IMG/VR virus record: IMGVR_UViG_3300020416_000058
Location: 1-26,732 of that record
Origin: a virus
Length of the DNA stretch: 26,732 nt
Strand: one strand, 5' to 3'
The notes beneath the pieces are model-generated. The model saw only the letters and a list, made by a program, of their open reading frames with translations. It was not told the origin of the DNA and did not search any database. Position 1 is the first letter of the stretch; every line of letters begins with the position of its first letter. This document shows, piece after piece, positions 1-23,141 of the stretch. A program made the position numbers and the translations under genes.

Positions 1-70
1 ATCTTGTGTTTTCATGTAATTCTGGTGTGCTATAAGTTCTTGCCATACCAAACTTAACTGTATATTTCAT
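1..70 (-). CDS. Hypothetical protein, partial (N-terminus only)
   Basis: Only the first 23 codons lie in the window; the gene continues past its left end. The start codon at 70-68 is preceded on the minus strand by a strong AGGAGG site. The ATG overlaps the TGA of the upstream zinc-ribbon gene as ATGA, so it is the last visible member of the translationally coupled small-gene array. The visible peptide begins MKYTVKFGMARTY. Too little is present for a family call. Confidence 0.6.
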   Translation of the reverse strand, partial: MKYTVKFGMARTYSTPELHENTR

Positions 71-234
71 GCTTCCTCCTGTAACTTTTGAATGATTGAT
101 TTATAAATACTTCCTTCTTCTTCGAGATATATTGTTTTTTGTGTATCTTTATTCCCACAAAAAAAACATTTATTTATAAATTTATCTTGCTCAAAGAAAT
201 GATTATTACATTTAAGACATTCTACTATTTTCAT
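67..234 (-). CDS. Zinc-ribbon microprotein (55 aa, two CxxC knuckles)
   Basis: This 55-residue ORF begins MKIVECLKCNNHFF. It has a first CxxC knuckle (ECLKC, residues 5-9) and a second about 18 residues later (KCFFCGN), the spacing of a rubredoxin-like zinc ribbon. The C-terminal half is acidic and helical. The start at 234 has an AGGAGG site, and the start ATG overlaps the upstream stop as ATGA. The stop likewise overlaps the next gene. Such small zinc ribbons often bind nucleic acid or RNA polymerase, but no partner can be named here. I infer a role in early host takeover only from position in the array. Confidence 0.8.
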   Translation of the reverse strand: MKIVECLKCNNHFFEQDKFINKCFFCGNKDTQKTIYLEEEGSIYKSIIQKLQEEA

Positions 235-593
235 GCTTCCTCCTTTGTTAGTTCATCATACGGAAAATAATCTTTGACTTTATAAATTGCTTCTATCTTG
301 GTAATTTCATCTTCTGGGTACATTGGATCTCCATCATGTACGCAAATACTTTGTCCAATTAAATCACTTGGTTTGTTAAGCCATTCATATTCCGTAAATT
401 CAAACATAGTCCAAACTTTTTGGTCTATGTCTGATATGTAAGAGCTTGTGTGCTCAAAATCCCAATCTGCGTAATCTTCTGCAAATTTATCATCTCCTAA
501 AGCAATTATATTACCTCCACCACCAGCAGTATCACATTCGATAACTAAACTATCCTTTTGGCTTTCTCTGTTAATAAATTTTACTTCTTTCAT
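231..593 (-). CDS. Hypothetical acidic protein (120 aa)
   Basis: I do not recognise a family. An upstream ATG at 608 would add five residues (MEGGR), but those codons are the GGAGGA ribosome-binding site of the internal ATG at 593-591, so the start is placed at 593 (MKEVKFINRES). The protein is acidic and rich in Asp, Glu, Tyr and Trp. It has a glycine run (AGGGGN, about residue 24) and a segment DIDQKVW that resembles DIDQEIW in the next gene upstream. The stop overlaps the zinc-ribbon start as ATGA. It is soluble, with no signal peptide or membrane segment. Confidence 0.8.
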   Translation of the reverse strand: MKEVKFINRESQKDSLVIECDTAGGGGNIIALGDDKFAEDYADWDFEHTSSYISDIDQKVWTMFEFTEYEWLNKPSDLIGQSICVHDGDPMYPEDEITKIEAIYKVKDYFPYDELTKEEA

Positions 594-886
594 TCGTCCT
601 CCTTCCATATTTTTAATTGTTCATCAATTATCAAAGATAAGTCTCGATAAAACTTCATGCCTTCTTCATAATTAGAAGTACAAAAACCTTGCATATTATC
701 CATAGTAAAATAATTATCTTCGTCAATTTGAAGTTCGTCTTTTAGTTTATTTTTGATTACTCTGGCTATATCTTCAGTAATATCCCATTCAACAAAGTAT
801 CTGGCTTTTTTATCTTGCCCTACTTCCTTATCAAAATTACACCAAATTTCTTGGTCTATATCTCCATGCTCTCTATAAAATCTCAT
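590..886 (-). CDS. Hypothetical protein (98 aa)
   Basis: No family is recognised. The longer reading from 904 adds MVGGGR, which again is simply the GGAGGA ribosome-binding site, so the start is taken at 886 (MRFYREHGDIDQEIW). The C-terminal half (NYEEGMKFYRDLSLIIDEQLKIW) matches the pattern of the C-terminus of the 145-aa protein at 1380-1817 (YQQGIKILDELSPKIDQKIIHF), which suggests distant paralogy. It overlaps both neighbours by 4 nt (ATGA), so translation is likely coupled. Acidic and soluble. Confidence 0.78.
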   Translation of the reverse strand: MRFYREHGDIDQEIWCNFDKEVGQDKKARYFVEWDITEDIARVIKNKLKDELQIDEDNYFTMDNMQGFCTSNYEEGMKFYRDLSLIIDEQLKIWKEDE

Positions 887-1110
887 TCGTCCTCCTCCCA
901 CCATTTGTGGATGTGCATCTCATCAACTAACATTTGGCAAACTTCGTACTCGCCATCTGCGTGTTTCAAGATTGCTTTACGCATTATATTGAGATCAATG
1001 TTTCCATTTAAAATCTCAGTCAGCCAACCATCTGAACTATGGTAATCATAGTGTTCAAAAAATTCACAAACACTTTCATAACATACTGCTACATCTAATT
1101 TACTTTTCAT
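883..1110 (-). CDS. Hypothetical protein (75 aa)
   Basis: A small acidic protein beginning MKSKLDVAVCYESV and ending in a Trp/Glu-rich tail (HKWWEEDE). The GGAGGA encoding that tail doubles as the ribosome-binding site for the next gene, whose ATG overlaps this stop as ATGA. Its own start overlaps the upstream TAA as TAATG and is preceded by GGAGGAAG. Two cysteines occur but no paired CxxC. No family is recognised. The tight packing shows it is real, but its function is unknown. Confidence 0.75.
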   Translation of the reverse strand: MKSKLDVAVCYESVCEFFEHYDYHSSDGWLTEILNGNIDLNIMRKAILKHADGEYEVCQMLVDEMHIHKWWEEDE

Positions 1111-1238
1111 TAGTCTTCCTCCACTTCAAATTCAATGTTAGATAGATTTAATTTATCATTAGTTTCCTCTATTGCGTCCTCATAAGTTTCAGCATCTACT
1201 TCAAACTCAAACTGTCCTTTAACTATAAATCTTTTCAT
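1110..1238 (-). CDS. Hypothetical acidic microprotein (42 aa)
   Basis: This 42-codon ORF reads MKRFIVKGQFEFEVDAETYE at its N-terminus and ends in IEFEVEED. The alternating strand-helix-strand character (KRFIVKGQFEFEV, then a helix, then NIEFEVEE) suggests a tiny beta-alpha-beta fold. An AGGAGGAGGAA site precedes the start at 1238, which overlaps the upstream TGA (ATGA). The stop overlaps the next gene (TAATG). It is called from strong translation signals and perfect fit in the array; function unknown. Confidence 0.72.
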   Translation of the reverse strand: MKRFIVKGQFEFEVDAETYEDAIEETNDKLNLSNIEFEVEED

Positions 1239-1378
1239 AGTTCCTCCTCCTCAATCATAATTTCGATTAGTTCTTTATCTGAGTAGTTATATGCACAACT
1301 CAAACACAATTCAAAACCTACTTGGTCTTGCGTTGACCTTTCATCAACTTCTTTTTTACATAATTGACATCTGCTCAT
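1235..1378 (-). CDS. Zinc-ribbon microprotein (47 aa, two CxxC knuckles)
   Basis: This 47-residue ORF begins MSRCQLCKKEVDE. Its first knuckle is CQLC (residues 4-7) and its second is CLSC (about residues 25-28), with a helical acidic tail ending in EEEEL. The layout is that of a treble-clef or zinc-ribbon microprotein, similar to but not a copy of the 55-aa protein at 67-234. It starts one base after the stop of the upstream gene with a weak TAGGTG site, and its own GAGGAGGAGG end serves the next gene. Likely nucleic-acid or protein binding through zinc; the partner is unknown. Confidence 0.78.
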   Translation of the reverse strand: MSRCQLCKKEVDERSTQDQVGFELCLSCAYNYSDKELIEIMIEEEEL

Positions 1379-1379
1379 T

Positions 1380-1817
1380 TCAACACCTACAAAAGTGAAT
1401 TATTTTTTGGTCTATCTTGGGAGATAGTTCGTCTAGTATTTTGATACCTTGCTGATATCTACCATAAAAAGCACAAGACCAACCATCATTTTCAAAAGTA
1501 GAACAAGCATTATTGTGAACTGCGTCTTTAACTATACCGATTACATCAAGTGCGAGTCCTTCATATTCTTGGTCTAGATTATTAAAATCTAGTCCGAACA
1601 TACAAAAATCATTTATATCTTCTGGGTATTCGTTAATCCATTCAAACTCTGGTAGACCTTCGTCATTAAATGTAGGGTTATGTAAATCAGCTTTATTTAT
1701 CAGCCAGATTAAATCCTCATGGTCTGTTTCATAGCCAAAGTGAACGCATCCCCCTCCACTATGGAAGGGGAATAGCTTTTTATTTTTGCTTAGTAATTGT
1801 TTGCTAGTGTCTTTCAT
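1380..1817 (-). CDS. Hypothetical protein (145 aa)
   Basis: No family is recognised. The protein begins MKDTSKQLLSKNKK, has a Gly/Cys/His patch (HSGGGCVHFGY, about residues 19-29), an acidic middle, and a C-terminus that resembles the 98-aa protein at 590-886 (Y..G.K......IDQKI). It ends CRC. GAGGAGG lies 7-10 nt upstream of the ATG at 1817, which overlaps the TAA of the gene before it as TAATG. Soluble, no membrane segments. The His/Cys patch could bind a metal, but that is only a guess. Confidence 0.8.
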   Translation of the reverse strand: MKDTSKQLLSKNKKLFPFHSGGGCVHFGYETDHEDLIWLINKADLHNPTFNDEGLPEFEWINEYPEDINDFCMFGLDFNNLDQEYEGLALDVIGIVKDAVHNNACSTFENDGWSCAFYGRYQQGIKILDELSPKIDQKIIHFCRC

Positions 1818-2143
1818 TAGGCGACCTCCTCAAGTTCGTTTAAATAATCGGCTACGATTTCTTCGCCAATGATATAAGCGTACATATTCACGACTTTTTC
1901 TGGGTCTGATAAATCAGTATGAACTTTTCCGAAATTATCTTGTTCATAATCTTTAATAAAGTTAATTACATTAAACGCCATATCTCCTAGCCATTGTTCA
2001 GCTTGATATGTGCCAATGATGTAATAGTCAGTGTTAAAAGCGTGATGATGTAAATCATCTTTGTTATCTTCTATCCATTCGGCATCTTGGTCGTTAATAA
2101 AATCATCAAAGTATTCTTTGATTTCTTCTTTTTTGTAATCCAT
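1817..2143 (-). CDS. Hypothetical acidic protein (108 aa), first gene of the minus-strand array
   Basis: This is the leader gene of the small-gene array. It is strongly acidic (many Asp and Glu) with a tyrosine-rich C-terminal helix (VVNMYAYIIGEEIVADYLNELEEVA). The start at 2143 follows an AGGAGAA site in a leader that also carries TTAATTAA, as in other leader genes of this phage. A sigma70-like promoter lies just upstream at 2172-2200. No family is recognised. Small acidic early proteins in phages often act as inhibitors or DNA mimics, but nothing here proves that. Confidence 0.82.
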   Translation of the reverse strand: MDYKKEEIKEYFDDFINDQDAEWIEDNKDDLHHHAFNTDYYIIGTYQAEQWLGDMAFNVINFIKDYEQDNFGKVHTDLSDPEKVVNMYAYIIGEEIVADYLNELEEVA

Positions 2144-2171
2144 AGTTATTCTCCTAAAAAAATGGTTAATT

Positions 2172-2200
2172 AATATAAGAATTATTACATATTTTTACAA
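2172..2200 (-). promoter_or_regulatory. Sigma70-like promoter for the minus-strand array
   Basis: Read on the minus strand, TTGTAA (2200-2195) and TATATT (2177-2172) are separated by exactly 17 bp, within the optimal range. The -10 overlaps TTAATTAA (2166-2173), an element repeated in other leaders here. The predicted start point falls about 15 nt before the AGGAG site of the 108-aa gene. Confidence 0.55.
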
Positions 2201-2202
2201 TT

Positions 2203-2211
2203 TGTGCATAA
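2203..2211 (-). other. DnaA-box match (TTATGCACA)
   Basis: Read on the minus strand the nonamer is TTATGCACA, a full match to the relaxed consensus TTWTNCACA. It sits beside a very AT-rich stretch (about 2212-2290) and the GATC/TGCGA repeat field. A single box can occur by chance, so it is weak evidence on its own, but its place next to the repeats is suggestive of an origin. Confidence 0.35.
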
Positions 2212-2468
2212 CTATTTACATAAAATTACATACATATTTTATATAATAAAAGTTAATAAACTTTTTCGTATTTCATTGATATAGATTAATAAACACGATT
2301 TCGACCCCCTCGCACACATAATCAAAATGTTTTCAGTTTGATCTAGTGCGATCTGCGATCTATAAAATAAAAAAAAAATCCGATCTGCGATTTCCAGATC
2401 CGAAAATTCGCCAGATCAATTTGCGATCTGCGATTTATGATCTGCGATTTGCGATTTATAAATAGAAA

Positions 2469-2492
2469 CCCCAAGATCCGAAGATCCTGGGG
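2469..2492 (-). terminator. UUCG-tetraloop hairpin, possible weak minus-strand terminator
   Basis: On the minus strand, CCCCAGGATC and GATCTTGGGG close a TTCG loop as a 10-bp stem with one G-U pair. The c(UUCG)g loop is exceptionally stable in RNA. It is followed by TTTCTATTT rather than a pure U tract, so termination would be weak. On the plus strand the loop is CGAA and the stem has an A-C mismatch, which favours minus-strand function. It may back up the strong terminator at 2684-2721. Confidence 0.4.
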
Positions 2493-2511
2493 CACCATTA
2501 GGAGAACAAAT

Positions 2512-2531
2512 TTGTCGAGAGAGTTCGACAA
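2512..2531. repeat. Perfect 7-bp inverted repeat (hairpin)
   Basis: TTGTCGA (2512-2518) and TCGACAA (2525-2531) flank a 6-nt GAGAGT spacer. It is one of several hairpins packed into the non-coding region. It could be an RNA stem or a protein-binding site. Confidence 0.5.
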
Positions 2532-2573
2532 GTGCGAGTTTAACATTATAAATGTGCGAATTGCTACTATTTA

Positions 2574-2624
2574 GATCAACCGGGCGATCTACCGGGTTGC
2601 GAGCTGCGACTTGCCCGGTTGATC
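2574..2624. repeat. Perfect 12-bp inverted repeat around a 27-nt centre
   Basis: GATCAACCGGGC (2574-2585) is exactly complementary to GCCCGGTTGATC (2613-2624). The 27-nt centre contains two TGCGA copies and a further CCGGG. A 12-bp perfect GC-rich repeat is very unlikely by chance in this genome. It may form a cruciform or long RNA stem. Confidence 0.65.
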
Positions 2625-2654
2625 CCGGGTAATCTTCCGGGCAATCTTCCGGGC
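2625..2654. repeat. 12-bp tandem repeat, about 2.5 copies
   Basis: The unit CCGGGTAATCTT (2625-2636) is repeated as CCGGGCAATCTT (2637-2648) and begins a third time (CCGGGC, 2649-2654). It directly abuts the right arm of the 12-bp inverted repeat. It looks like an iteron or protein-binding array. Confidence 0.6.
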
Positions 2655-2683
2655 TATGCGCGGCCTGCTCCTGATCGCTGGCT

Positions 2684-2721
2684 GAAAAAAAAGAAGGCCC
2701 ACTAGAAAAAACTAGTGGACC
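2684..2721 (-). terminator. Rho-independent terminator for the 142-aa gene
   Basis: On the minus strand, GGTCCACTAG and CTAGTGGGCC form a 10-bp stem (one G-U pair) around a TTTTTT loop. It is followed by TTCTTTTTTTT, a good U tract. It lies about 60 nt past the stop codon at 2780 and should end transcription arriving from the right. Confidence 0.8.
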
Positions 2722-2730
2722 TGGGGGGAT

Positions 2731-2768
2731 GTGGGATTGGGTTTGTATTAGGGAGAGCCCAACCCCAC
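2731..2768 (-). repeat. 11-bp stem-loop preceding the terminator
   Basis: GTGGGATTGGG (2731-2741) pairs with CCCAACCCCAC (2758-2768) with one mismatch around a 16-nt loop. It lies just after the stop codon at 2780 and just before the terminator, so the transcript would end in two tandem hairpins. The same tandem design occurs at two plus-strand terminators. Confidence 0.5.
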
Positions 2769-2779
2769 TGCTTTGGAAA

Positions 2780-3208
2780 TTAAGCATTTATTAAAATTTG
2801 GGTTGGGGTCATTCTAATTCTGAGTGGTTGCCCTTTCGCAATGTTAAGTAATTGAGTTTTGGTAAGTGGTACCGACTCAGCAAAGTCGTCGCCACTTACA
2901 GCATAAGTTTTATCCCAAAGATCTTCTTGGTTAAGGTCAAAACCTTTTGCATATGCGACTTTGAACTTCTTCGCTTTTGCGTCCCATAGTTCTTTGTCGT
3001 TGGTCGCGCCACTCATGACATAGATACCATGGTCTTTTACTAGAATAAAACAAGGAGTCTTTTTTCCCTTGTCATATTCTTCTTGAGTAATGTGACCTTC
3101 TTTAAGCATGAAGTCTTCGTAAGGTACGCTGAATTTGCGCTTTTTAAGTGTCACTTGTGCGATTTCTTTTAATTCGTCGCCAACGAATAACAAGTTTGTT
3201 GTTGTCAT
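2780..3208 (-). CDS. Hypothetical phage protein (142 aa), possibly DUF3085-like
   Basis: The protein begins MTTTNLLFVGDELKEIAQ. It carries a central core FILVKDHGIYVMSG followed by VAYAKGFDL and a VSGDDFAE segment. That order (value/knowledge of a 'live' strand, then YA.G.D, then GGDDF) reminds me of the DUF3085 phage family, from memory only. The start at 3208 has an AGGAGAA site and a leader with TTAATTAA, so this is a transcription-unit leader or at least separately expressed. Its 3' end is closed by a stem-loop plus strong terminator. Function is unknown. Confidence 0.82.
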   Translation of the reverse strand: MTTTNLLFVGDELKEIAQVTLKKRKFSVPYEDFMLKEGHITQEEYDKGKKTPCFILVKDHGIYVMSGATNDKELWDAKAKKFKVAYAKGFDLNQEDLWDKTYAVSGDDFAESVPLTKTQLLNIAKGQPLRIRMTPTQILINA

Positions 3209-3254
3209 ATCTTCTCCTAATATGAAAGTTAATTAATACAGAAAGTATAGCAGT

Positions 3255-3569
3255 TTACGCAGTAGTTTTCCATGTCAACTCTTTGAAGTCATAGCCACCT
3301 AAAACATCAGAGACCAAGTAGCCCCACTCTTGATGATATAAACTGCCATCATGGTCTGAGTCAAACTCGCCATACTTACTATCTGGGTCTGCCCAATAGC
3401 CACCATAGATACCTCCATCCAATTCTTTTTTGTCTAAGAAGAATGAATAATCCATAAAGCCATAGCTATTTATGTGGGCATACATTTCAAAAGTTCCTTC
3501 TGCGAGTTCCAGCTTGAAACTGTAAGGACTTGCGTCCTCCTCTGTTCTGTCTAAGTATGCGTCATCCAT
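3255..3569 (-). CDS. Hypothetical acidic protein (104 aa)
   Basis: An Asp/Tyr/Gly-rich soluble protein (MDDAYLDRTEEDASPYSFKL at the start; DGGIYGGYWADPDSKYGEFDSDHDGS in the middle, with the run split here by description only). The Asp-rich DSDHDG loop looks like a calcium-binding turn but is a weak match to an EF-hand loop. The start lies inside the end of the upstream gene (8-nt overlap) with a GGAGGT site 6 nt before it. No family recognised. Confidence 0.75.
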   Translation of the reverse strand: MDDAYLDRTEEDASPYSFKLELAEGTFEMYAHINSYGFMDYSFFLDKKELDGGIYGGYWADPDSKYGEFDSDHDGSLYHQEWGYLVSDVLGGYDFKELTWKTTA

Positions 3570-3861
3570 TGCTTACCTCCAAAAATCCATAGTCGCCTTC
3601 GTCTTTCATCAATTGAATTAATCTTTCTTTGGCTCTGTTAACCTCGTCCTGATCATATTCTTTGATTTTTTTTGACGCTTCTAGGGTAAAGTCTTCCCCA
3701 GAGCTTTCATCACCAATGAAAAAATCTTTGGTAAAGAAAGAAAAGTAAAGGAATGAATAGCTTCCAAATTCATCTTCAATCCTTTCGTTAAAGCGATAGA
3801 CATCTGTATTCATATCTTCACAGATGATATCGCCACTCTTATCACAAATTATATTTCTCAT
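3562..3861 (-). CDS. Hypothetical protein (99 aa)
   Basis: The protein begins MRNIICDKSGDIICEDMNTD. Two Cys (CDKSGDIIC) are too far apart for a simple CxxC knuckle. A Phe/Tyr-rich strand region (YSFLYFSFFTKDFF) is followed by an acidic, helical C-terminus. The start overlaps the upstream TGA as ATGA, and the stop lies 8 nt inside the next gene. It is part of the three-gene minus cluster 3255-4010. No family recognised. Confidence 0.75.
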   Translation of the reverse strand: MRNIICDKSGDIICEDMNTDVYRFNERIEDEFGSYSFLYFSFFTKDFFIGDESSGEDFTLEASKKIKEYDQDEVNRAKERLIQLMKDEGDYGFLEVSNG

Positions 3862-4010
3862 TTGTACTCTCCTGATCTTTTAAATTTATCTTCGCCGACT
3901 TGAATAACAAAGCCAACCTCCAATGCTTTCTCTAGTAGTTGGTCCTGATCTAGTTCAAAACAAAAACAAGGCGCTTGTTCCAACCATAAAGATTTTTTTG
4001 TGTATATCAT
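3858..4010 (-). CDS. Hypothetical microprotein (50 aa)
   Basis: A longer reading from 4049 would begin MYNISISISLGGI, but those codons cover the promoter region and the AGGAGG site (4012-4020) that serves the internal ATG at 4010, so MIYTKKSLWLEQAPC is taken as the start. The 50-aa product is followed by the next gene with an ATGA overlap. It contains CFCFELDQDQ near the middle and a basic end. It heads the minus cluster facing the divergent promoter region. No family recognised. Confidence 0.68.
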   Translation of the reverse strand: MIYTKKSLWLEQAPCFCFELDQDQLLEKALEVGFVIQVGEDKFKRSGEYK

Positions 4011-4040
4011 AATTCCTCCTAATGAAATTGATATAGATAT

Positions 4041-4070
4041 ATTATACAAAATGAATTATAATTCAAGTAT
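4041..4070. promoter_or_regulatory. Divergent promoter region with palindromic operator candidate
   Basis: This interval lies between the divergent genes starting at 4010 (minus) and 4097 (plus). It holds TATAAT on the plus strand (4057-4062), TATAAT on the minus strand (4046-4041) and TTGAAT on the minus strand (4066-4061). A perfect 14-bp palindrome, TGAATTATAATTCA, spans 4052-4065. The core TATAATTCAAGTAT (4057-4070) is identical to 5199-5212, the other divergent region. The -35 elements are less convincing here than there. Confidence 0.5.
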
Positions 4071-4096
4071 TAATTACATTATTAGGAGGTACAAAA

Positions 4097-4507
4097 ATGC
4101 AATTATTAACAATGGAAAACTCTAGAAAAATTTTAAAGAAAGGATGTTCCTATCGCATAGGGACCAATGCTTTAAATATCCTGGAATTTATTTATGATCA
4201 CCAGGGTTTTAAAAGTAAAAATCCAAATTTTAAAATCACACCACCTGCTTTAAAAGGAGCTAAACAGTCATACTTAAATGGCACTATAAAATGGGTAGAC
4301 CCTATGACTAGGGCTTTATCCGATAGGCAAGAAACTGATTATCGTTTCAGTGCAATGCAAAACATAAGTCACGATGACTTGAGATGCAGAGTGGGTGTTT
4401 TTACTGCATGGAATGGTGAGCCTGTGTGGGTTTTAGAAGAAGGAGAAACAGTTGATGATATAGCATATCAAGATTTAAATGAGATGATGCTTCCTGATCT
4501 TTTTTAA
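4097..4507 (+). CDS. Hypothetical protein (136 aa)
   Basis: A monocistronic plus-strand gene with its own promoter region, an AGGAGGT site 6 nt before the ATG, and a strong terminator 27 nt after the stop. The protein begins MQLLTMENSRKILKKG and has a mixed, soluble composition. A TAWNGEPVWVLEEGETVDD segment near the C-terminus is preceded by a Cys (DLRCRVG). I do not recognise the family. Its isolation between minus-strand genes suggests separate regulation, possibly an early gene. Confidence 0.82.
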   Translation: MQLLTMENSRKILKKGCSYRIGTNALNILEFIYDHQGFKSKNPNFKITPPALKGAKQSYLNGTIKWVDPMTRALSDRQETDYRFSAMQNISHDDLRCRVGVFTAWNGEPVWVLEEGETVDDIAYQDLNEMMLPDLF

Positions 4508-4533
4508 ATGTAGTAAGTAGTCCCACTACATGG

Positions 4534-4565
4534 AAAGGGCGCCTTGATCGGGCGCCCTTTTTTTT
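4534..4565 (+). terminator. Strong rho-independent terminator
   Basis: AAAGGGCGCC (4534-4543) and GGCGCCCTTT (4551-4560) form a 10-bp stem with a 7-nt loop, followed by eight T. A smaller hairpin, TGTAGT/ACTACA (4509-4514 and 4525-4530), lies directly upstream, so the transcript ends in two tandem stems. Confidence 0.9.
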
Positions 4566-4584
4566 GTGGGGGATTTGCGATTTG

Positions 4585-4782
4585 CTATTTAAAACTGCGA
4601 ATTAAAATTTCAAAGTAAAGAACTGCCAGAGCAAGAGCCAGACCAAAAGCCATGCCCATTGAAAAAATTGCCCAGCCAGCTCCTATTGTGAACAAGTGCG
4701 CTTGGATTAGGTTATGTCCCAGGATGGGAAAAATAATGGCACCTCCAACCGAGGTGCCGAATGCTATTAAAGTTATTTTCAT
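4585..4782 (-). CDS. Small membrane protein (65 aa, two predicted TM helices)
   Basis: The sequence is almost entirely hydrophobic: about residues 3-21 (TLIAFGTSVGGAIIFPILG) and about 31-58 (a Phe/Ala/Leu-rich stretch ending AVLYFEILIR), joined by NLIQAHLF. This predicts a two-helix hairpin in the inner membrane with a basic C-terminus (RSFK). It overlaps the upstream 121-aa gene by ATGA. Small phage membrane proteins can be holins, superinfection-exclusion factors or uptake inhibitors. No lysin lies beside it, so holin is only one possibility. Confidence 0.7.
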   Translation of the reverse strand: MKITLIAFGTSVGGAIIFPILGHNLIQAHLFTIGAGWAIFSMGMAFGLALALAVLYFEILIRSFK

Positions 4783-5144
4783 AATGCTGTGGCCTCCAAC
4801 AAGATCTTGCGCTTTTCTACAAAGCTCTCATCTTCGACATTCCAGCAAAGCCAACCACCGAAATAGTAAAGAGTTCTTCCATTTATTTCTTGTGGTTTAA
4901 TGGCCATGATTTCGTCAACGAAGTGACCATCACAACCATCATCAAGATCTGGATTTTCCATCCAATCATTAATGCAACGCTTTACATATCTATAGAACTC
5001 ATCTCTTTCCATGTAAGGCATTGCCCACCCATTCCAACCACGACAATCTGCGTCTAGCCAACAATCGTAAAGTAGTCTTGGGTCTTTGTTTTCGTAATAG
5101 TCATCAAAGCATACATGACTGCGAAACAATTTAAGGTCTTTCAT
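4779..5144 (-). CDS. Hypothetical protein (121 aa)
   Basis: The protein begins MKDLKLFRSHVCFDDYYE and is unusually rich in Trp, Tyr, Cys and acidic residues (DCWLDADCRGWNGW; WLCWNVEDE). No CxxC pair is present. The AGGAGAA site and a TTAATTA-containing leader follow a good minus-strand promoter (5208-5180), and the stop overlaps the membrane-protein start, so the two form one small operon. The aromatic-rich acidic composition recalls the other small early proteins of this phage. No family recognised. Confidence 0.8.
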   Translation of the reverse strand: MKDLKLFRSHVCFDDYYENKDPRLLYDCWLDADCRGWNGWAMPYMERDEFYRYVKRCINDWMENPDLDDGCDGHFVDEIMAIKPQEINGRTLYYFGGWLCWNVEDESFVEKRKILLEATAL

Positions 5145-5176
5145 AATTTATTCTCCTATGAATGATTAATTATTCT

Positions 5177-5204
5177 TTGATTTTATATATACATTTAGTA
5201 TAAT
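5177..5204 (+). promoter_or_regulatory. Plus-strand sigma70-like promoter for the MGMDVYG gene
   Basis: TTGATT (5177-5182) and a perfect TATAAT (5199-5204) are 16 bp apart. Transcription should start near 5211, in the conserved TATAATTCAAGTAT core, followed by TTAATTAA (5218-5225) and AGGAGGT before the ATG at 5249. Confidence 0.6.
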
Positions 5205-5208
5205 TCAA
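5180..5208 (-). promoter_or_regulatory. Minus-strand sigma70-like promoter for the 121-aa gene, overlapping the plus promoter
   Basis: Read on the minus strand, TTGAAT (5208-5203) and TAAAAT (5185-5180) are exactly 17 bp apart. Its -35 overlaps the plus promoter's -10, and its -10 overlaps the plus promoter's -35, so the two cannot be occupied together. Confidence 0.55.
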
Positions 5209-5248
5209 GTATCTATTTTAATTAATTTTATATATTAGGAGGTAAATT

Positions 5249-5779
5249 ATGGGAATGGATGTATATGGTAATCAACCAAAAAATGAAGCTGGAGAGTATT
5301 TCAGAAATAATGTTTGGTGGTGGCGTCCTCTTTGGGACTTCGTCGCTTCTATTGATGAAATGTATTCAGAAGTAAAAAGTGCTAATCGCTTAATCTCTGA
5401 GGATATGTACCAAAGTGGTCATTGTAACGACGGCGTTGGTTTAGAAACTCAAGAAGATTGTGATGAGTTATTAAATCGTTTAGGTTGGGCTATTGAAGAA
5501 GGACTTGCCGACCATCAAGAGAAGCAATACTCTGAAATAGTTAAACAAGCCAAAGAGACAAACAAGTTTGTCGAAAAGGAGATGCAAGAGTTTCAAGATA
5601 AAATGAAAAAGAAACTCGGCAATGATGTTGTCCCTTATGATTATCCTAAAAAGGATAAAGCTAAATGGGATGCAATCTATAAAAAAAGAGATAATCGAGA
5701 GAGTTATCCTTTTACAATAGAAAATGTTGAGGAGTTTTGCGAGTTCTTAAAAAACTGTGGAGGGTTTAGGATTTGTTAA
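5249..5779 (+). CDS. Conserved phage hypothetical protein, MGMDVYG family (176 aa)
   Basis: The N-terminus MGMDVYGNQPKNEAGEYF followed by NNVWWWRPLWDF is a signature I recognise from many marine and other phages, where the function is unknown. Next comes a helical domain with LETQEDCDELLNRL (about residues 66-79), a charged coiled-coil-like stretch (about 95-125), and an FTIENVEEFCEFLKNCGGFRIC C-terminus. It has its own promoter, an AGGAGGT site and a terminator, so it is a single-gene unit. It is expected to be cytoplasmic. The family call is from memory. Confidence 0.85.
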   Translation: MGMDVYGNQPKNEAGEYFRNNVWWWRPLWDFVASIDEMYSEVKSANRLISEDMYQSGHCNDGVGLETQEDCDELLNRLGWAIEEGLADHQEKQYSEIVKQAKETNKFVEKEMQEFQDKMKKKLGNDVVPYDYPKKDKAKWDAIYKKRDNRESYPFTIENVEEFCEFLKNCGGFRIC

Positions 5780-5797
5780 ACCATCCTCCTATGGTGG

Positions 5798-5824
5798 AAA
5801 GGGCGACTTCGGTCGCCCTTTTTT
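5798..5824 (+). terminator. Rho-independent terminator with UUCG tetraloop
   Basis: AAAGGGCGAC (5798-5807) and GTCGCCCTTT form a 10-bp stem closed by a TTCG tetraloop, followed by a T run. A small ACCAT/ATGGT hairpin (5780-5795) with a CCTCCT loop lies immediately upstream. The TGGAAAGGGCG lead-in matches that of the terminator at 4534. Confidence 0.9.
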
Positions 5825-5984
5825 GTTTGTGCGTTTGCGAATTCCGATACGGTCGCCAGAACAAATGCGAGCTCAAAAATTATAGGCCTCTTAAATTTAT
5901 TTTTTTTAAAATAATAAATAGTGATCACCAAGTTCTGTAGGATCGGGAGGACTTAATTTTTTAATTTTCCAGGGTCTTAAGTGG

Positions 5985-6013
5985 TTGCACAAAATGTCTA
6001 AAAATGTTAAATT
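5985..6013 (+). promoter_or_regulatory. Sigma70-like promoter in the 5827-6045 intergenic stretch
   Basis: TTGCAC (5985-5990) and TAAATT (6008-6013) are 17 bp apart, with AAAAGGAGGTACAA before the ATG at 6046. The rest of the 5827-6045 gap has no credible gene. It contains TGCGA copies at 5833 and 5867, as in the other post-terminator gaps, and an AT-rich tract at about 5897-5925. Confidence 0.5.
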
Positions 6014-6572: not shown

Positions 6573-6602
6573 ATGAAAAAGGGACCCCTATCAAATCCAT
6601 GA
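6573..6602 (+). CDS. Possible 9-codon leader ORF coupled to the next gene
   Basis: ATG at 6573 opens a nine-codon frame (MKKGPLSNP) whose TGA (6600-6602) overlaps the ATG of the XF1762-type gene at 6599 as ATGA. The downstream gene has no clear ribosome-binding site of its own, so re-initiation after this mini-ORF could explain its translation. A plus-strand TATAAT at 6558-6563 lies only 9 nt upstream, so this may instead be chance. Confidence 0.25.
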   Translation: MKKGPLSNP

Positions 6603-7060
6603 AATTACAAGTAATACCTATATCTTTAAGGGAAGCAAACGAATTTGTTATTAACTTTCATAGACACTCTAAAAAGACTAGGGGTCACAAATATTCAATT
6701 GGGGCTTCAGATGGAGAAAATTTAGTAGGAGTTGCTATAGTAGGCAGACCAGTAGCCAGAAAATTAGATGATGGATTTACTGCTGAAGTATTAAGAGTAT
6801 GTGTAAAAGATGATTCTCCTAAAAATACTTGTTCTTTTTTGTACGGTAGAAGCTGGCGCATTTGGCAACAAATGGGTGGTAAAAGAATGATTACTTATAC
6901 TTTGCAAAAAGAATCTGGATCTTCTTTACGAGCAGTTGATTGGAAGATTGTAGGTGAAACTAAAGTTTGGAAAGAAGGAACTGGTTGGGCAACTAGACCA
7001 GGTAGAGAGTGGCAACCTATATACGGACAACAAAAGTTTAGATGGGAAGTACTTAAATGA
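6599..7060 (+). CDS. XF1762-family protein (GNAT-like fold), 153 aa
   Basis: The sequence shows the series I associate with XF1762-type phage and prophage proteins: LREANEFVINFHRH, then VGVAIVGRPVARKLDDG, EVLRVCV, CSFLYGRSWR, MITYTLQKESGSSLRAVDWK. The layout resembles a GNAT N-acyltransferase, with the V-A-I-V-GRP strand as the core and a region (about 75-110) where acetyl-CoA would lie. The substrate is unknown. It is 153 aa, complete. It precedes terL and overlaps it by ATGA, so both are probably transcribed together. Family call from memory; enzymatic activity unproven. Confidence 0.8.
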   Translation: MKLQVIPISLREANEFVINFHRHSKKTRGHKYSIGASDGENLVGVAIVGRPVARKLDDGFTAEVLRVCVKDDSPKNTCSFLYGRSWRIWQQMGGKRMITYTLQKESGSSLRAVDWKIVGETKVWKEGTGWATRPGREWQPIYGQQKFRWEVLK

Positions 7061-8514
7061 AATTAGATCACTTAAATGACGAGACGATAAAAGAAATCTT
7101 AATGATTCAAGATCGTCTGAAAGTTATAGATGCTAAATCAGAATCAAGAGACTCCTTTTTGGGCTACATAAAACACGTCTGGCCTGAGTTTATCGAAGGG
7201 GAACACCACCGATTATTCGCGCAAAAGCTAGAAGATGTTGCGAAAGGCAAAATTAAAAGATTAATTGTCAATATGCCACCCAGACATACCAAGTCTGAGT
7301 TCGCTTCAGTCTACTTTCCTTCTTGGTTTATGGGACTCAAACCAAATACCAAGATCATGCAGACCACGCACACTGCTGAATTATCTGTGAGATTTGGTAG
7401 AAAGGTTAGGAACCTTATGGATCAGAACGAATATAAACAACTATTTGATGATTTCGGTTTATCTGCTGATTCCAAATCAGCTGGGCGATGGGAAACCAAT
7501 AAAGGTGGCGAATACTTTGCGGCAGGTGTGGGTGGAGCTATTACTGGGCGTGGTGCCGACCTTTTGATTATTGATGACCCACATTCTGAACAAGATGCCA
7601 TGTCTCCTTCAGCATTGGAAAGCGCTTGGGAGTGGTATTCTTCTGGACCGCGACAAAGATTACAGCCGGGAGGCTCAATCGTAATCGTAATGACGCGTTG
7701 GAGTACCATCGATCTTACCGCTAAATTGATTAAACGTATGTCTGAAGATAGTGCTGACCAATGGGAAGTACTAGAGTTGCCAGCGATTATGGATTCTGGC
7801 AAACCACTTTGGCCTGAATATTGGAAGATCGAAGAATTGGAAGCTGTCAAAGCTTCTATTCCAGTAGCCAAGTGGAATGCTCAATACATGCAGAATCCAA
7901 CCAGTGAAGAGGGCGCAATCGTTAGACGAGAGTGGTGGAATATCTGGGAAGATGAAGAACCACCACCCGTTGATTATATTATTCAATCTTACGATACTGC
8001 TTTTTCAAAAAAAGAATCGGCTGACTATTCAGCGATTACTACTTGGGGTGTGTTTCGTCCGAGTGATGATGCCCCGGATTCAATAATTCTTTTAGATTCT
8101 AAAAAAGGTCGTTGGGATTTTCCAGAACTCAAAGGAATTGCCTACGACGAATACCAAATCTGGAGTCCCGACATGGTCTTGATTGAGGCTCAATCGAGCG
8201 GGACTCCTTTGACTCAAGAACTGAGAATGATGGGCATACCTGTAATTAACTTCCGACCCTCAAGAGGTAACGATAAAGTTACTAGAATGCACTCGGTCGC
8301 ACCGATGTTTGAATCAGGTATGGTTTGGGCGCCAGACATGAGCTTTGCCGAAGAACTTATCGAAGAATGTGCCGCCTTTCCATTTAGTGAACACGATGAC
8401 TTGGTGGATTCCATGACTCAAGCCTTGATGAGATTTAGACAAGGTAATTTCATATCGCTTGATTCAGATGAAGTTATGGAAGATAATGACTTCACGAATC
8501 GAATTTATTACTAG
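7057..8514 (+). CDS. terL: Terminase large subunit (TerL)
   Basis: This is the DNA-packaging motor. The ATPase domain has the Walker A-type MPPRHTKS (residues 73-80), Walker B DLLIIDDP (about 168-175) and a TRW coupling motif (213-215). The C-terminal RNase H-like nuclease has SYDTAFSKKESADYSA (first Asp at 313), LIEAQSSG (Glu 377) and HDDLVDS (Asp 447, 448 and 451). The 485-aa length and PPRHTKSE form fit the TIGR01630 / psiM2-type large terminases. It acts in the cytoplasm, docking on the portal of the procapsid. No small subunit is recognised next to it. Confidence 0.96.
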   Translation: MKLDHLNDETIKEILMIQDRLKVIDAKSESRDSFLGYIKHVWPEFIEGEHHRLFAQKLEDVAKGKIKRLIVNMPPRHTKSEFASVYFPSWFMGLKPNTKIMQTTHTAELSVRFGRKVRNLMDQNEYKQLFDDFGLSADSKSAGRWETNKGGEYFAAGVGGAITGRGADLLIIDDPHSEQDAMSPSALESAWEWYSSGPRQRLQPGGSIVIVMTRWSTIDLTAKLIKRMSEDSADQWEVLELPAIMDSGKPLWPEYWKIEELEAVKASIPVAKWNAQYMQNPTSEEGAIVRREWWNIWEDEEPPPVDYIIQSYDTAFSKKESADYSAITTWGVFRPSDDAPDSIILLDSKKGRWDFPELKGIAYDEYQIWSPDMVLIEAQSSGTPLTQELRMMGIPVINFRPSRGNDKVTRMHSVAPMFESGMVWAPDMSFAEELIEECAAFPFSEHDDLVDSMTQALMRFRQGNFISLDSDEVMEDNDFTNRIYY

Positions 8515-9249: not shown

Positions 9250-9495
9250 ATGCCAAAGAAGATTGAGGATCTCTCTTACGAAGAGACCGTGGAGAAGATT
9301 ACCAATATCACAAGTTACTTAGAGAGAGATGATCTCAGTATTGATGAATCTATCGAAGCATTTTCCTACGGAGTAAAACTTAGCAACCATGCTAAAAAAT
9401 TGTTAAACTCTGCTGAAGATAAAATTAAAAAAGTCTTAGACAAGGAGCACGTAGATGACTCAAAAAAACTCAAAAGTAAAAATATATTTGACTGA
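9250..9495 (+). CDS. xseB: Exodeoxyribonuclease VII small subunit homologue (XseB), 81 aa
   Basis: The sequence follows the XseB pattern closely: SYEETVEKI, LERDDLSIDESIEAF, YGVKLSNHAKKLLNSAEDKIKKVL. It matches the E. coli protein's S.E, LE..DL..EE, F..GV.L and L..AE positions and its length (80 aa there, 81 here). XseB is a helical hairpin that assembles in several copies on XseA, the catalytic subunit, to form a single-strand exonuclease. No xseA is present in the window, so the product would act on the host's XseA or alone. There is no clear ribosome-binding site. Its last 41 nt overlap the next gene. Confidence 0.85.
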   Translation: MPKKIEDLSYEETVEKITNITSYLERDDLSIDESIEAFSYGVKLSNHAKKLLNSAEDKIKKVLDKEHVDDSKKLKSKNIFD

Positions 9496-20942: not shown

Positions 20943-21623
20943 ATGACTTATACGCAGCTACAAGATTTAATTAAGAACTTTTGTGATAGCACAGAAACTA
21001 CTTTTGTTAATACGATTGCAGATTTTATTAAAAATTCAGAAGAAAGAATATTTCAACTAGTAGAATTTGATTTTTTTAGAAAGAATGTAACTGGAGTATT
21101 TACCTCTGGGAATAGATTTTTAACAACACCTTCAGATTATATAGCTAGTTTTTCTCTAGCAGTATTAGATTCTGGTGGAGATTATCATTATCTTTTAAAA
21201 AAACACCCTACATTTATGCAAGAGTATTCAGAAGATCCAGCTGATACTAACTTGAGAGGATTGCCTTTGTACTACGCTGATTTTGATAAAGAACTTTCTA
21301 CAGCATCTAACAATGGATCTACCATAACAGTAAGTCCAGTACCAGATGCAAACTACAACGCAGAACTTCACTATCTTTACAAACCAGCTTCTTTAACTTC
21401 TGGTTCTGGTAGCGGTACTACTTGGCTATCAACAAATGCAAGAAGCGCTTTGTTATATGGCTCTTTAGTTGAGGCCTATACTTTTTTAAAAGGAGAGCCA
21501 GATGTATTAGCTCAATATGAAAAAAGATTTATGGAAGAGATAGCAAGACTTAAAAACAGAGCAGAGGGCAGAAGCAGAAGAGATGAATATAGGGCTGACG
21601 CGCTAAGAACAAATGTAACTTAA
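20943..21623 (+). CDS. Second neck/tail adaptor-like protein (226 aa)
   Basis: The N-terminal helical part (MTYTQLQDLIKNFCDSTETTF; IADFIKNSEERIFQLVEFDFFRKN) and RFLTTPSDYIASFSLAV, then TWLSTNARSALLYGSLVEAYTFLKGEPDVLAQYEKRF, fit the family of phage adaptor proteins (second gp4-like or tail-tube terminator-like). Same overall layout as the 222-aa gene at 19436, so likely a partner in the neck stack. There is no clear ribosome-binding site; the leader is only 17 nt. Confidence 0.78.
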   Translation: MTYTQLQDLIKNFCDSTETTFVNTIADFIKNSEERIFQLVEFDFFRKNVTGVFTSGNRFLTTPSDYIASFSLAVLDSGGDYHYLLKKHPTFMQEYSEDPADTNLRGLPLYYADFDKELSTASNNGSTITVSPVPDANYNAELHYLYKPASLTSGSGSGTTWLSTNARSALLYGSLVEAYTFLKGEPDVLAQYEKRFMEEIARLKNRAEGRSRRDEYRADALRTNVT

Positions 21624-22712: not shown

Positions 22713-23141
22713 ATGGCAATAACTTCAACTTTAACTACTAGTTTTAAAAAAGAACTATTAACTGGTGTTCATAACTTTACTAACAGTTCTGGCGATACCT
22801 TTAAACTAGCTTTATTTACTAGCTCGGCTACTATGGGAGCAACCACAACTGCATTTTCAACTGCACAAGAAGCCAGTGGTACTAACTATACTTCTGGAGG
22901 AGCCAACCTAACAAATGTAACTCCGACTAATGACGGTACTACAGCTATAACAGATTTTGCAGATTTAACTTTTGGAACTGCTACTGTTACAGCTAGAGGT
23001 TGTATGATCTATAACAGTTCTGATTCTAATAAATCGGTAGCTACTATAGATTTTGGTGGAGATAAAACTTCTACTGCTGGAGATTTCACAATAGTTTTCC
23101 CAGCAGCTGCAGCTAGTACGGCTATTATAAGAATAGCTTAG
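22713..23141 (+). CDS. Structural protein, tail-fibre-associated (142 aa)
   Basis: The sequence MAITSTLTTSFKKELLTGVHNFTNSS, then DTFKLALFTSSATMGATTTAFSTAQEASGTNYTSGGANLTN, TATVTARGCMIYNSSDSNKSVATIDFGGDKTSTAGDFTIVFP, follows a protein often found next to tail-fibre genes of cyanophages and other marine phages. All-beta, Thr/Ser-rich. It likely forms part of the distal tail or fibre base. GAGG site 8 nt before the ATG. Confidence 0.82.
   Translation: MAITSTLTTSFKKELLTGVHNFTNSSGDTFKLALFTSSATMGATTTAFSTAQEASGTNYTSGGANLTNVTPTNDGTTAITDFADLTFGTATVTARGCMIYNSSDSNKSVATIDFGGDKTSTAGDFTIVFPAAAASTAIIRIA

Follow-up and report, generated by a model that had tools for sequence, protein, structure and literature searches.

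The repeat field at positions 2144-2779 of the window (the whole stretch of viral DNA analysed, 26,732 nucleotides) is tentatively identified as an initiator-binding, origin-like DNA site that lies beside a structured core. On sequence grounds this is the single most likely reading, with a replication origin ranking ahead of both a small RNA gene and an operator. The locus appears to be a conserved, non-coding, cis-acting site of the podovirus clade related to HTVC023P and to comprise two modules. Module A would consist of conserved boxes, an AT-rich tract and TGCGAYT heptads that share one strand and frequently form 7-bp tandem pairs, and module B of a hairpin core that probably ends leftward transcription in the window's clade and may itself be an RNA. 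The repeats exceed chance expectation, are conserved in relatives and keep to one strand, and the two modules are separable. A phage protein most likely binds the TGCGA heptads side by side, and the site most likely serves to initiate replication. Once bound, that protein would melt the AT-rich tract and then load the phage primase-helicase, which in relatives is a Prim-Pol/PriCT_1/AAA_25 protein.

Results

Phage and gene layout

The window is, judging from its genes, a fragment of an HTVC023P-related podovirus genome. The phage was placed by its TerL (7057-8514, + strand), which shares 60-64% identity with those of HTVC027P, HTVC023P, 023Pt_psg01 and DSL-LC04; HTVC027P and HTVC023P are Pelagibacter phages and the former is a cultured isolate. 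Leftward genes lie mostly within 67-4010 and rightward genes occupy most of the remaining window, with the repeat field to the left of terL. In relatives the array or core has terS 2-4 kb to its left, so terS is expected just beyond the window edge. Both genes flanking the field are leftward (Table 1), and the DUF3085 gene is missing from two contigs (L010 and L012) that retain the core. Immediately ahead of terL, at 6599-7060, is a Mom-like DNA modification gene (PF25680; phrog_1384). Three contigs (L014, L015 and L011) start 22-30 bases before terL, probably owing to assembly breaks at a variable junction.

Table 1. Positions of the features discussed in the text, in window coordinates unless another contig is named.
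Feature	Position	Strand	Remarks
Source record	IMGVR_UViG_3300020416_000058, positions 1-26,732	one strand	26.7-kb virus record
Flanking leftward gene	1817-2143	-	108 aa, PHROG 10208, function unknown
AT-rich tract	2144-2300		also 5' region of the leftward gene 1817-2143
Module A boxes AAGTTAAT..TTTTTCG..CCCCCTC..AAAATGTTTTC	2230-2335	+	used in fixed-pattern search of relatives
Main TGCGA heptad array	2347-2454	+	copies at 2347, 2354, 2386, 2422, 2429, 2443, 2450
Hairpin P1	2468-2493	-	predicted leftward intrinsic terminator with UUCG loop in the window's clade
TTAGGAGAA	2498-2506	+	element of the search pattern; local ribosome-binding sites match it; the putative RNA seed is its complement
Hairpin P3 (TTGTCGA-GAGAGT-TCGACAA)	2512-2531	+	GTCGAGAGAGT(T)CGAC in 20 of 20 pattern members, by construction of the pattern
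Further TGCGA copies	2533, 2555, 2598, 2605 (2533-2609)	+	first two retained in most of the window's clade
Terminator P5 of DUF3085 gene	2695-2722	-	leftward
Hairpin P4	2730-2769	-	in the window's clade stem altered, 16-nt loop retained (one end base varies)
Flanking leftward gene	2780-3208	-	DUF3085, 142 aa
Mini-array, 2 TGCGA	4572-4600	+	past terminator of rightward gene 4097-4507; recurs in relatives
Mini-array, 2 TGCGA	5826-5870	+	past terminator of rightward gene 5249-5779; recurs in relatives
TTGTGCA block	G002 22787-22950; G005 31960-32122; G001 21273-21434	- (G001)	upstream of terS

Repeats and composition of the gene-free field

At 636 bp the field is the longest gene-free stretch, as the sequence-only reading had stated, and the next-longest gap between predicted genes is 269 bp. 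Two leftward ORFs overlap it (67 aa, 2343-2546; 123 aa, 2416-2787), each of which is disrupted by in-frame stops in at least 5 of the 10 relatives searched; protein coding was therefore rejected and the field treated as non-coding. To assess chance clustering, the whole window was simulated 200 times under a first-order Markov model. GATC occurs 14 times in 337 bp (2340-2676), as had been claimed, against a simulated maximum of 7 in any 337 bp, and 11 forward copies of TGCGA fall within about 260 bp (2347-2609), against a simulated maximum of 4 per 300 bp. The earlier statement that all TGCGA copies point in one direction is correct for this array but not for the whole field, which also contains a reverse copy at 2310. 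The genome-wide counts it had proposed give ordinary totals for the whole window (86 GATC against 73.6 expected; 30 TGCGA against 27.1 expected), and the clustering itself is therefore the signal. Clustered short repeats in the gene-free stretch are thereby confirmed as real.

The remaining elements of that reading are likewise found in the sequence. A DnaA-type nonamer, TTATGCACA, is present on the minus strand at 2203-2211 as an exact TTATNCACA, which recurs exactly at one other place in the window (14765). A 12-bp tandem repeat of 2.5 copies (2625-2654) and a perfect 12-bp inverted pair (2574-2585/2613-2624) are both present, but neither (2574-2654, + strand) is retained in relatives, and the 7-bp inverted repeats that had also been listed are numerous and carry no weight. 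The described switch from AT-rich to GC-rich DNA is evident, GC content being 16.6% in 2144-2300, 38.1% in 2301-2460 and 50.5% in 2461-2779. The tract is among the AT-richest 100-bp windows, nearly equalled at 5131-5171 (15-18% GC) and 3981-4041 (19%), both of which are other, ordinary gene-start regions, and it is milder in the relative G005 (31.6% GC against 39.7% contig-wide). A second candidate motif, GCCAGANCAA (4 forward copies, 0 reverse), was dropped because two of its four matches fall within an apparently coding leftward ORF (4585-4782).

Conservation and separation of the two modules

Relatives were gathered by TerL (50 loci) and by DUF3085 (2 loci), and the interval is conserved in place among them. 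The core pattern (TTAGGAGAA, then GTCGAGAGAGT(N)CGAC) was found in 19 IMG/VR viral contigs, making 20 with the window, some of which are near copies of each other and so do not amount to 20 independent cases. A looser pattern gave three matches in genome contigs: one, L091, is a true match in a phage contig of a metagenome bin, and two are chance matches in high-GC Natribaculum breve DNA that has neither P1 nor an array. Five viral contigs matching the looser pattern (L092-L096) were also treated as chance, having no P1 and no array; with the RNA model R1, E values are 0.07 for L092 and 0.13 for L095.

The core is made up of a GC-rich stem P1 (CCCC..GGGG), the TTAGGAGAA segment and a hairpin P3 (GTCGA-GAGAG-TCGAC), and its usual neighbours are TGCGA heptads on one strand, conserved boxes and an AT-rich block. 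The boxes, which are found to the left of the array, are AAGTTAA, TTTTTTCG-like, CCCCCTC-like and AAATGTTTTC elements. A fixed-pattern search detected the C-tract, last box and array in 17 of 21 core-bearing contigs; of the exceptions, L060 ends soon past the core, and L069, L071 and L091 carry variants recognised by eye. Module A shows 96-97% identity within the window's clade and 57-66% between clades. Its array is confined to one strand and occupies the same position in relatives, and the commonest spacing between neighbouring TGCGA copies is 7 bp (18 of 77 spacings in 16 distinct rows), followed by 22, 38, 10 and 14.

In two relatives the modules come apart. The array block of L070 is 825 bp from the core, and that of G005 is 1659 bp to the right of the core, between a rightward terminator and a leftward one, the latter read by eye. 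The order of block and core is reversed in both, and in both the block comes after a rightward terminator. These separations show that modules A and B can move apart and that the array can sit where an operator would be unexpected; its position after a rightward terminator fits a DNA site better than an operator.

Structure of the core

RNAalifold, applied to 15 distinct core sequences, gave 11 pairs, 4 of which show two-sided change. Examined stem by stem, P1 pairs in 11 of 12 distinct sequences with no more than one odd pair over 7-10 pairs; in the twelfth (L091) the search extended the stem into mismatches, and the inner stem is identical to that of L059. Covariation in the fold alignment is weak (-0.33) because the P1 loops differ in length. 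The RNA model R1 retained only 5 base pairs, since P3 was misaligned, and is therefore mainly a sequence model; a search with it across 36 sources returned no core in the parts searched of HTVC027P, 023Pt_psg01, DSL-LC04 and HTVC023P, nor in G007. A short rightward peptide encoded by the core was rejected, since the frames, read by eye, lack a conserved start codon and in the L017 clade contain a stop. Rfam gave no match at gathering score in the window and none at E up to 1 in 2100-2850, and no tRNA was found in the window. Structured RNAs do occur in the terS-terL interval of the group, as HTVC027P carries a match to Rfam RF02976 (Flavobacterium-1 RNA; 90.2 bits, gathering 58.9) there, at 9256-9376 on the minus strand.

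Origin features across relatives

The sequence-only reading had proposed a candidate phage origin, and comparison with relatives, which it had suggested as a check, sustains that proposal in part: the TGCGA array and AT-rich block are kept in place and orientation, whereas the GATC cluster, the DnaA box and the 12-bp repeats are not. As a sign of an origin the DnaA box fails, being exact in 2 of the 13 testable rows (of 16 rows, which vary in the upstream length shown, these 13 reach 300 bases) and oppositely oriented in one of those two, L067; the conserved DnaA boxes of a DnaA-dependent origin are thus lacking among these rows. GATC clustering fares no better, with 13 copies in the window's row and 1-2 in six of the 16 rows, and the cluster is not retained in relatives in the manner of a Dam/SeqA-regulated origin. 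L026 has 12 copies and L071 has 9, and TGCGA persists where GATC drops; dense GATC is for the most part a trait of the window's clade. On this comparison the site needs neither host DnaA nor Dam methylation. The GC-skew minimum falls elsewhere, at 5066, an outcome that had been named in advance as contrary to an origin, but it has little weight: skew tracks the coding strand, and 5066 is a switch in gene orientation. GC skew was dropped as an origin test since it follows gene strand, and skew at four-fold sites in one relative gave no replication signal.

The replication genes of relatives are consistent with the origin reading. The 54.8-kb relative G001 encodes a Prim-Pol/PriCT_1/AAA_25 protein, a Sak4-like annealing protein, a Cas4-like exonuclease, an SF2 helicase and a DUF669 protein, and G002-G007 carry all or part of this set. 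The Prim-Pol/AAA_25 replication protein was matched in 7 of 7 relatives (G001-G007), several of which are fragments, and the PolA of HTVC027P has no match in these same seven, fragments included. A plasmid-like primase-helicase replicon could use an iteron origin. The field has the short direct repeats in non-coding DNA that characterise such origins, conserved and at heptad spacing, and an AT-rich tract alongside, albeit one that is not unique in the window. Counting against an origin, no initiator gene adjoins the array, its flanks being DUF3085 and a gene of unknown family; the Prim-Pol gene is about 6-8 kb from the array in relatives; and the array lies within a variable region of small genes. 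An initiator gene next to an iteron array is usual, though not universal.

A competing repeat block beside terS

Direct and inverted TTGTGCA repeats form a block 0.3-0.7 kb upstream of terS in G001-G005, outside the window. Between clades this block is 83-91% identical, compared with 70-77% for terS DNA, 57-66% for module A and 45-74% for the core. Being better conserved, it at least equals the array as a candidate origin, and by conservation it would be the better candidate for an essential site, whether origin or pac. Repeats also occur in other lineages, identified there from TRF output and the highest-count 7-mers, with no lineage-by-lineage control for chance: G007 and L030 have repeats near terS plus a second set between terS and terL, HTVC023P and 023Pt_psg01 have other short repeats in gaps of that interval, and HTVC027P has two 7-bp tandem arrays of another sequence there, of which the first lies in a gap and the second overlaps a small annotated gene. 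G007 also contains long irregular GGTTNGGCAGGT-like repeats (27650-28200, - strand) upstream of a small HTH-like gene that precedes Prim-Pol.

Discussion

Several other explanations of the locus were weighed. The core (2460-2560) could be a leftward small RNA gene composed of P3, a seed UUCUCCUAAU and the terminator P1, a reading that is doubtful yet the nearest in rank to the origin. Base pairing between the seed and the ribosome-binding sites of local early genes would shut these genes down, and the TGCGA boxes around its TATAAT (the copies at 2533 and 2555 flank this leftward hexamer) would control the RNA. P1 does score as a leftward intrinsic terminator with no gene ahead of it, and the 101-nt fold has z of -5.49 leftward and -4.60 rightward, with 0 of 200 shuffles as good on either strand. 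Of the odd pairs in distinct P1 stems, three are G-U only on the leftward RNA and one only on the rightward RNA. TTAGGAG sites also follow the core by clade: in the two clades with core CTTTAGGAG, 12 of 14 sites have CTTTAGGAG and 0 of 14 have ATTAGGAG, and in the window's clade, with core ATTAGGAG, the counts are 0 of 15 and 8 of 15, respectively. However, the Fisher p of 0.002 for this seed/RBS relationship is overstated because homologous genes in related contigs were counted as independent, and the core may merely resemble a local RBS. Furthermore, the P1 U-tail is found in the window's clade only and is absent from the other two clades, the TATAAT has no good -35 by eye, and variation in P3 of L052 favours the other strand, again by eye. 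Within 2143-5249 of the window, the first genes of local operons share the RBS TTAGGAG preceded by A/T, and most late genes in the window are without AGGAG. An improbable extension would join the two readings: the small RNA would shut off the phage's own early genes through its RBS-complementary seed, seed and RBS would co-evolve by clade (ATTAGGAG in one, CTTTAGGAG in two), and transcription would be gated by the TGCGA-binding protein that marks a nearby origin, tying shut-off to replication.

It is unlikely, and somewhat more so than the small RNA gene, that the array is the operator or promoter region of the leftward operon starting at 2143, with TGCGA as the site of a phage transcription factor. 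In the window, as in most relatives, a leftward gene starts immediately downstream of the array, and the AT-rich tract resembles other gene-start regions, but the G005 block between convergent terminators and the mini-arrays that come after rightward terminators do not fit an operator. Nor does module A contain a conserved sigma-70 hexamer pair by eye, and promoter-like matches in 1-6000 are not above shuffles (17 against 23.1 expected). A pac site recognised by the small terminase is a poor candidate, less probable even than the joint scheme above: the array does lie between terS and terL, an interval with short repeats in other lineages too, but it is 2-4 kb from terS, and the TTGTGCA block of G001-G005 is far closer. 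A cos end was rejected because none of the contigs carrying the core ends at it, an observation that does not speak against pac. Unselected sequence drift in a gap is very improbable; one part of the interval, 2574-2654, is indeed not conserved, but the core and boxes are strongly conserved and the stems show compensating changes. An integration site was also rejected, as no integrase was seen in a non-systematic look at annotated or scanned nearby genes.

The origin reading can be set beside characterised systems. In PLE, a phage satellite, RepA binds repeats in a 2.7-kb non-coding region needed for replication (PMC7145576). The present locus resembles plasmid iteron origins and that of PLE in having direct repeats in a non-coding region. 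It differs from them in its 7-bp unit and in having neither a known nor a neighbouring initiator, and its origin function is a prediction from sequence. Phage P1 oriR has GATC-bearing heptamers and lambda ori has iterons beside an AT-rich tract; unlike in these, GATC is not conserved here, and the TGCGA heptads are another sequence. Of the flanking genes that were scanned, none proved to be a homologue of O or RepA. SaPI origins pair an AT-rich region and its surrounding short iterons with a helicase-type replication protein. All three have likely counterparts here, but the present iterons flank the tract on a single side and lie well away from the replication gene. As for the core, trans-acting small RNAs with C-rich seeds target Shine-Dalgarno sites, and in the window's clade the core has a comparable predicted hairpin, CU-rich unpaired seed and intrinsic terminator; it differs in that the layout changes in other clades, 2100-2850 has no Rfam match and the RNA is a predicted one.

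A limited term search of the literature on this phage group found no mention of a replication origin or of intergenic or noncoding elements. The defined, conserved site described here offers a concrete target for mapping the start of replication, or the switch-off of early genes, in such phages.
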